38,644 nt of DNA from NCBI GenBank assembly GCA_016278515.1, contig JADQBR010000129.1, forward strand, positions 1 through 38,644, written 5' to 3'. This document shows, piece after piece, positions 4,525-38,644 of this stretch. A program made the position numbers and the translations under genes. Position 1 is the first letter of the stretch. The number at the start of each line of letters is the position of its first letter. The stretch comes from Bacillota bacterium (lineage in GTDB: Bacteria; Bacillota; JADQBR01). The notes beneath the pieces were generated by a model. That model had not been told where the DNA came from. It was given only the letters and a program-made list of their open reading frames with translations, and did not search any database.

Positions 4525-4814
4525 AACAAATTGTAAGGGCATATGTAAGCCTTCTACAAAATGAAATAAACGTAAAAAATATTTACCTGTATGGGTCGAG
4601 TGTTAATGGTACTTTTACGGAAGATAGTGATATTGATCTAGCTATAATAGCCGAAGATTTTTGTGGGGATGCAATCGAAGATCGGTTCAAGCTAATGAAA
4701 TTACGAAGAACCATTGATTATAGAATAGAACCCCATCCATTTTCGGTAAATGATTTTAATGAGTATAACCCAATGGCGAAAGAAATAATGGATACAGGTA
4801 TAAAAATAATTTAG
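4494..4814 (+). CDS. MNT-type nucleotidyltransferase antitoxin
   Basis: A 106-residue nucleotidyltransferase with a complete GSX10DXD motif (LYGSSVNG...EDSDIDLAII). ATG 4494 follows AAGGAG at good distance although it lies inside the HEPN gene, so translation is probably coupled. It should modify or mask the HEPN toxin. Gene order here is HEPN then MNT, the reverse of the pair at 3093-3724. The sequences of the two MNT proteins are quite different, so they are probably separate acquisitions and not a recent duplication. Confidence 0.75.
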   Translation: MAAINSRGQIEQIVRAYVSLLQNEINVKNIYLYGSSVNGTFTEDSDIDLAIIAEDFCGDAIEDRFKLMKLRRTIDYRIEPHPFSVNDFNEYNPMAKEIMDTGIKII

Positions 4815-4841
4815 CTAAAAGAGCACCGTAATAAGGGTTTT

Positions 4842-4959
4842 TGAAGGCGGAACAGGCAGCCGCCGCACTAGGTGTACTGGTTATGTAAAGAGATGTGGGA
4901 TACGCCGCCCCACCGAAAATCCTTCATTTCCAAAGCCCGGTCTCGTGACCGGGTTTTTT
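4842..4959 (+). ncRNA. Possible structured RNA ending in a strong terminator
   Basis: The 120 bases after the MNT gene are GC-richer than their surroundings and can fold into a multi-branched shape. TGAAGG (4842-4847) pairs with CCTTCA (4921-4926); inside, GGCGG (4846-4850) pairs with CCGCC (4860-4864) and GTGGG (4895-4899) with CCCAC (4909-4913). The first two helices compete for two bases. A perfect terminator hairpin follows. I do not recognise a known riboswitch or small RNA. It could be a small RNA, a regulatory leader, or merely a structured 3' end of the HEPN/MNT transcript. Confidence 0.35.
4936..4959 (+). terminator. Intrinsic terminator
   Basis: A 7-bp GC-rich stem, CCCGGTC/GACCGGG, with a TCGT loop, followed by six T. 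It separates the HEPN/MNT module from the first mazEF operon. Confidence 0.9.
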
Positions 4960-37367: not shown

Positions 37368-37400
37368 ATGCTAACTAAATATGTTTTCAAGAAAAGATAG
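37368..37400 (+). CDS. Ten-codon ORF ending in a terminator (possible leader peptide)
   Basis: ATG 37368 follows AAGGAG (37354-37359) after 8 bp and codes for MLTKYVFKKR. Its stop codon lies in the first arm of the terminator hairpin at 37395-37418. Such an arrangement is seen in leader peptides that control read-through into downstream genes, here the two genes at 37474-38302. It could equally be a chance frame or a micropeptide gene with its own terminator. Confidence 0.35.
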   Translation: MLTKYVFKKR

Positions 37401-37424
37401 AGCGAATAAGCTCTATCTTTTTTC
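37395..37424 (+). terminator. Intrinsic terminator or attenuator
   Basis: AGATAGAGC (37395-37403), loop GAATAA, GCTCTATCT (37410-37418), then TTTTT. It starts within the ten-codon ORF. Confidence 0.85.
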
Positions 37425-37579: not shown

Positions 37580-38302
37580 ATGAGTTTAGTTGAAATAGCA
37601 GTTCAAACGTTTTTGGCTTTTTTCTCTATATTCATTTATGCAAGGTTGCTGGGCAGACAGCAGGTTAGTCAACTGACATTTTTTGAATATGTGACCGGTA
37701 TTACTTTCGGGAGTATTGCGGCAACCATCGCAACCGACGTTAACCAGAGAACCCTGACACATTTTATCGGATTAACTTTGTTTGCCGCGTTAACCTATTT
37801 GATGCAGATAATATCTTTACAAAGTCGTCCTGCCCGGAAGGTAATTGAGGGCGAACCTGTAGTTATGATTAAGAATGGCCAAATATTAGAAAAAAATATG
37901 GGCACCACCCATTACAACCTGGATGAATTAAGAATGCAGCTGCGTTCAAAGGGTTACTTTAATATTGGCGATGTTGAGTATGCGGTGATGGAACCTAATG
38001 GACAATTAAGCGTTTTGGTAAAATCCCAAAAAAGACCTGTTACACCTGAGGATCTGCAAGTAGATACCGATTTCGAAGGATTAGAGACGGAATTAATTAT
38101 GGATGGAGAGATTATCTTTCAAAACTTAAACCAATTAAATTTGGATCTACCATGGTTGAAAAAGCAGTTGGAGCAAAAAAACGTCACTGATTTAAACCAA
38201 GTAGTATTTGCAGGATTGGATAGCCAAGGCAATTTCTACCTTGATACTAGAAATGATAATCAGGTAGGTAAGGCAGATATAAGTGATAAACCTCCCGATT
38301 AA
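37580..38302 (+). CDS. DUF421 (YetF-like) membrane protein
   Basis: A 240-residue protein with three N-terminal helices (residues 5-20, 35-50 and 60-80), then a cytoplasmic mixed alpha/beta region of the DUF421 family. Characteristic segments are ARLLGRQQVSQLTFFEYVTG, GSIAATIATD and VIEGEPVVMIKNGQILEKNM, followed by LDELRMQLRSKGYFNIGDVE. Family members are linked to envelope stress and spore biology in Bacillus and Clostridia but the biochemical role is not known. The start ATG follows TAGGGGTG. The stop codon lies within a terminator palindrome. Confidence 0.87.
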   Translation: MSLVEIAVQTFLAFFSIFIYARLLGRQQVSQLTFFEYVTGITFGSIAATIATDVNQRTLTHFIGLTLFAALTYLMQIISLQSRPARKVIEGEPVVMIKNGQILEKNMGTTHYNLDELRMQLRSKGYFNIGDVEYAVMEPNGQLSVLVKSQKRPVTPEDLQVDTDFEGLETELIMDGEIIFQNLNQLNLDLPWLKKQLEQKNVTDLNQVVFAGLDSQGNFYLDTRNDNQVGKADISDKPPD

Positions 38303-38313
38303 TCGGGAGGTTT
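38288..38313 (+). terminator. Terminator-like palindrome after DUF421
   Basis: AAACCTCCCGATT and AATCGGGAGGTTT are 13-bp perfect inverse arms (38288-38313); the central bases form the loop. Only a short T stretch follows. Confidence 0.75.
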
Positions 38314-38340
38314 GTCGTTTATAAAGTCTGGTGGAGGACA

Positions 38341-38412
38341 ATGCGTAAGCTTGAGTTAGTGTATGGTTTGTCTCTCATGCACACAGTGCATAAGAAAAAC
38401 TACGGCTTTTAG
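38341..38412 (+). CDS. Repeat-encoded 23-residue peptide, unit 1
   Basis: ATG 38341 opens 23 codons (starts MRKLELVYG, ends HKKNYGF) with a stop at 38410-38412. GGAGG at 38333-38337 could be a ribosome binding site, but only three bases separate it from the ATG, closer than ideal. The peptide is basic, with a central SLMHTVH, and shows no signal or membrane helix. No known family. It may be a real micropeptide or a chance frame in a structural repeat. Confidence 0.35.
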   Translation: MRKLELVYGLSLMHTVHKKNYGF

Positions 38413-38418
38413 AGGACA

Positions 38419-38490
38419 ATGCGTAAGCTCGAGTTAGTGCATTGTTTGTCTCTCATGCACACAGTGCATAAGAAAGACTACGGCTTTTAG
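38419..38490 (+). CDS. Repeat-encoded 23-residue peptide, unit 2
   Basis: Same frame as unit 1. Differences: YG becomes HC at residues 8-9 and N becomes D at residue 20. The stop of unit 1 overlaps the AGAGG that precedes this ATG, so the units could be translated by re-initiation. Confidence 0.33.
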   Translation: MRKLELVHCLSLMHTVHKKDYGF

Positions 38491-38496
38491 AGGACA

Positions 38497-38568
38497 ATGC
38501 GTAAGCTCGAGTTAGTGTATGGTTTATCTCTCATGCACACAGTGCATAAGAAAAACTACGGCTTTTAG
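38497..38568 (+). CDS. Repeat-encoded 23-residue peptide, unit 3
   Basis: Predicted protein identical to unit 1, although the DNA differs at two silent positions (CTT/CTC and TTG/TTA). Confidence 0.35.
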   Translation: MRKLELVYGLSLMHTVHKKNYGF

Positions 38569-38574
38569 AGGACA

Positions 38575-38644
38575 ATGCGTAAGCTCGAGTTAACTCATGG
38601 TTTGTCTCTCATGCACACAGTGCATAAGAAAAACTACGGCTTTT
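38575..38644 (+). CDS. Repeat-encoded 23-residue peptide, unit 4 (cut by the window end)
   Basis: Same frame; residues 7-8 are TH instead of VY. All 23 codons are within the window and the first base of the stop codon is the last base shown. Confidence 0.33.
   Translation, partial: MRKLELTHGLSLMHTVHKKNYGF

Follow-up and report, generated by a model that had tools for sequence, protein, structure and literature searches.

At the right end of a 38,644-bp window from the genome of a Bacillota bacterium (GTDB lineage JADQBR01; assembly GCA_016278515.1, contig JADQBR010000129.1), near-identical 78-bp units are repeated head to tail between a gene for a DUF421/YetF membrane protein and a convergent zinc-ribbon-like open reading frame (ORF). 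Tandem Repeats Finder placed this array at 38334–38644 (period 78, 4.0 copies, 94% matches, 0% indels). The result agreed with the four spacer-free units described in the first-pass annotation and with their location, except that the first unit begins one base before the reported range of 38335–38644. Every unit carries a 23-codon ATG-to-TAG frame, whose TAG overlaps the AGAGG of the next unit, and the invariant palindrome ATGCAC-ACA-GTGCAT (ATGCACACAGTGCAT); both had been pointed out previously and were present in all four units (Table 1).

The frame encodes MRKLELVYGLSLMHTVHKKNYGF*, with the variants MRKLELVHCLSLMHTVHKKDYGF and MRKLELTHGLSLMHTVHKKNYGF, and in each unit only 3 bases separate AGAGG from the ATG. 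Eight of the 78 columns vary among units (19, 26–29, 32, 37 and 65). Columns 26–29 read GTGT in units 1 and 3, GTGC in unit 2, and ACTC in unit 4 as well as in a partial fifth copy beyond a scaffold gap. The window contains 4 copies of the palindrome, where 0.06 would be expected (up to 2 mismatches allowed), and elsewhere in the 4.27-Mb genome it was found only in the partial copy. The 78-bp unit as a whole was likewise confined to one genome site.

The window comprises bases 1–38644 of a 46,852-base contig and stops exactly at a gap of 100 N (C87, 38645–38744), the customary gap length when the size is not specified. Extension past 38644, proposed as a check in the first-pass annotation, led across the gap into a partial unit of 55 bp that matches the end of unit 4 base for base; TATAAAACAAAAGCC follows, then unique DNA and the zinc-ribbon gene. 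The two sides of the gap overlap by exactly 55 bases, and 55 is a common k-mer length of short-read assemblers. The simplest reading would be an assembler branch, at which the 55-mer continues once to AGAGG (a further unit) and once to TATAAA (the exit). With such a branch there would be five units or more, the final one also of the ACTC type. The array thus probably holds five or more units, with the true number hidden by the gap, but it could hold only four if the 55 bases beyond the gap represent the end of unit 4 itself.

The downstream neighbor is a 78-codon zinc-ribbon-like ORF on the minus strand (L003, 823–1059), whose Pfam matches were below the cut-off. Two genomes of the same family (G001 and G002) have the DUF421 and zinc-ribbon genes adjacent in the same orientation without the array, and the distance between their stop codons is 45 and 27 bp, respectively, versus 520 bp here (100 of which are N). 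Because the same gene pair lacks the array in both relatives, the array was most simply gained in this lineage. An inverted repeat, CCTCCCGATTAATCGGGAGG, is probably the terminator of the DUF421 gene, and a similar repeat lies at the same place in both relatives. At the right end of the array, the end of the last unit (GAAAAACTACGGCTTTT) forms the left arm of a hairpin, the right arm of which (AAAAGCCAAGTTTTTC) lies in unique DNA. As would be expected for a convergent gene pair, this hairpin is terminator-like on both strands.

Table 1. Coordinates of the repeat units and adjoining features in the window.
Feature	Position	Strand	Remarks
Unit 1	38334..38411	+	78 bp; peptide frame 38341-38412
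Unit 2	38412..38489	+	T29C, G32T, A65G vs units 1/3; perfect inverted repeat ACAATGC/GCATTGT
Unit 3	38490..38567	+	silent change G37A
Unit 4	38568..38644	+	77 bp in window, last base lost to scaffold gap; GTGT>ACTC gives 10-bp palindrome GAGTTAACTC
Palindrome ATGCAC-ACA-GTGCAT	38377..38391 (unit 1); 38455-38469, 38533-38547, 38611-38625 (others)	.	
DUF421/YetF membrane protein gene, upstream flank	37580..38302	+	Pfam DUF421, 5.3e-41
Inverted repeat CCTCCCGATTAATCGGGAGG	38291..38311	+	overlaps DUF421 stop; seen in sequence, absent from terminator-scan list

Searches for the unit in related genomes, also suggested earlier, yielded no relative at the DNA or peptide level. No DNA match at E ≤ 0.01 was obtained among 149 relatives, and in 398 genomes of the phylum, searches with the DNA, the peptide and a covariance model gave chance-level matches only, with the weak matches situated in unrelated, non-tandem DNA. 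Phage records, plasmid records and viral contigs yielded no relative. A scan of species genomes for CATGCACNNNGTGCATAAGAA returned four stray single matches in unrelated organisms, and a scan for paired palindromes in viral sequences returned five contigs, which were rejected because their repeats lay within unrelated, highly repetitive sequence. A literature search on tandem micropeptide arrays found nothing relevant.

Taken with its position, these results indicate that the array, which occupies the spacer of a convergent gene pair, is very probably a lineage-specific minisatellite, and the plain minisatellite was one of four readings offered by the first-pass annotation. The values from Tandem Repeats Finder fall within the minisatellite range of tandem, near-identical units of about 10–100 bp, and the array is restricted to a single locus and a single lineage. 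A founding intergenic piece of about 78 bp, whose right end also serves the intrinsic terminator between both genes as its left arm, may have been duplicated in tandem and then expanded through slippage or unequal recombination. Point changes within units, probably including a template switch at the near-palindrome of unit 4, would have followed, and the 23-codon frame and the hairpin would be by-products of the founding sequence. The frame, the hairpin and the invariance are at chance level, as described below, and no function is needed to explain the array. The minisatellite is probably neutral and matters little by itself. Several observations weigh against this interpretation. It was the only minisatellite of such size in a census of sampled stretches of the same genome (about 320 kb), so such repeats are not common throughout the genome. 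Seven of the eight variable columns lie within positions 19–37, and two long stretches, of 27 and 31 bp, are free of variation, a possible sign of constraint. A frame together with an upstream Shine-Dalgarno-like word arose in only 1–3% of random units, a mildly unusual point, and on the minus strand each of the four units folded better than shuffled sequences did (z −2.3 to −3.2).

We compared the array with random 78-bp units that were matched in dinucleotide composition and repeated in tandem. A polycistronic array of 23-residue micropeptides would fit the frame being open in all units, without an in-frame stop or indel, and the AGAGG three bases ahead of each ATG; in addition, 3 of the 8 distinct changes in the frame were silent. 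However, an ATG frame 23 codons or longer was present in 42–44% of the random tandem units, and the frame is open in every unit because a period divisible by three, without indels, keeps any open frame open. Such a frame is therefore weak evidence for a peptide, being expected in about two-fifths of random 78-bp units. The comparison of silent and coding substitutions, likewise proposed beforehand, gave no significant silent excess over the eight changes (p 0.20, with 1.6 silent changes expected); two other frames equaled the peptide frame in this score. With a codon model trained on 233 ORFs of the host genome, the peptide scored at the 1st–7th percentile of real gene fragments and at the 17th–47th percentile of wrong-frame open stretches, so its codon usage looks like wrong-frame DNA. 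A promoter scan of L003 1–1600 found a single site (1053–1081), which lies away from the array, and no promoter-like site near it. As no homologue was found among the 398 genomes either, the micropeptide array originally suggested is scarcely credible. A row of iteron- or operator-like sites, with a putative dimeric protein binding ATGCAC-N3-GTGCAT in each unit, is highly improbable, although the dyad is perfect, invariant in all units and unique to this place in 4.27 Mb. Among random units, 10% had a 6-bp stem with a loop of 3–8 (2% with a loop of exactly 3), and the probability that a given 15-bp block misses all eight variable columns was 0.17, or 0.33 if the changes represent five independent events; the invariance of the palindrome is within chance level. 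Moreover, the palindrome array is absent from relatives and lies at two gene ends, away from a promoter. The flanks examined hold no replication, partition or regulator gene: besides the DUF421 and zinc-ribbon genes, the plus strand past the latter carries an ORF without assignment and genes that we take, from our own reading of their matches, to encode a GGDEF protein and comFA- and comFC-like products.

A structured RNA, also among the earlier readings, was weakly possible on the minus strand and found no support on the plus strand, where single units showed no advantage over shuffled sequences in folding (z −0.1 to −1.6). In this reading, a 10-bp stem per unit, UCUUAUGCAC-UGU-GUGCAUGAGA, would form a tandem structured RNA downstream of the zinc-ribbon gene and act in the 3' region of its transcript, with a role in RNA stability or protein binding, for instance. 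The minus strand folds better because a G-U pair, available on that strand only, extends the palindrome stem to 10 pairs. Since the units are nearly identical, the four minus-strand z-scores count as one observation. None of 20 consensus pairs was changed on both sides (plus-strand consensus of four near-identical units), no Rfam match was found in the array, and the covariance model found no relatives. In addition, a terminator-like hairpin separates the zinc-ribbon gene from the array. We regard this minus-strand RNA as quite unlikely, and a newly arisen minus-strand hairpin array acting on both convergent transcripts, so far in one species, as very unlikely. Apart from this weak remainder, the three functional readings were not supported.

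Within the minisatellite, the differences among units suggest how they mutated. In the presumed direction of change, GTGT>ACTC makes a perfect palindrome, GAGTTAACTC, out of GAGTTAGTGT, and two of the changes in unit 2 likewise perfect its inverted repeat. One report (PMC7202029) describes quasipalindromes as mutation hotspots via a template-switch mechanism. The four clustered changes in unit 4, which represent one event, are probably a template switch at the near-palindrome, and would provide a neat small case of this type of mutation.

The array shares its head-to-tail arrangement, constant period, near-identical units, intergenic position and restriction to one lineage with bacterial minisatellites, or variable-number tandem repeat loci (satellites, PMC6749651; minisatellites, PMC2884548), and in the present genome it additionally coincides with an assembly gap. 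In this case the array is intergenic and the frame is closed within every unit. Separately, G-rich tandem repeats of 8–13 bp (GGGATGGCATGGG, TGGCTGGGGACTG and ACTGTGGC) occur at 1048–1141 of the window, apparently also between genes. The palindromic units (PU), or repetitive extragenic palindromes (REP), of Escherichia coli are intergenic with an inverted repeat in each copy, as here, but they are 30–37 bp long and form a family dispersed over the genome (PMC2884548), whereas the present unit occurs at one site only; REP/PU or another dispersed repeat was rejected because no second genome site was found. Clustered regularly interspaced short palindromic repeat (CRISPR) arrays also have regular repeats with an internal palindrome, but a CRISPR array was rejected as there are no unique spacers and the repeat is the whole 78 bp. 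Elsewhere in the genome, a CRISPR-like array with the repeat CTTTACATCCCTCTAAGTTCAGATATAAC and one spacer twice in succession was seen at L047 (G000:C35) 100–800, and a second, different CRISPR-like repeat, containing CCCCGCATGTGCGGGG, at L052 (G000:C60) 4727–4878. In the window itself, an Rfam skipping-rope RNA match (RF02924, 66.3 bits, above the gathering score) was found at 4836–4921 on the plus strand, and at 37369–37423 a very short ATG frame (ATGCTAACTAAATATGTTTTCAAGAAAAGATAG) leads into a terminator-looking hairpin, AAGATAGAGCGAATAAGCTCTATCTTTTTT.
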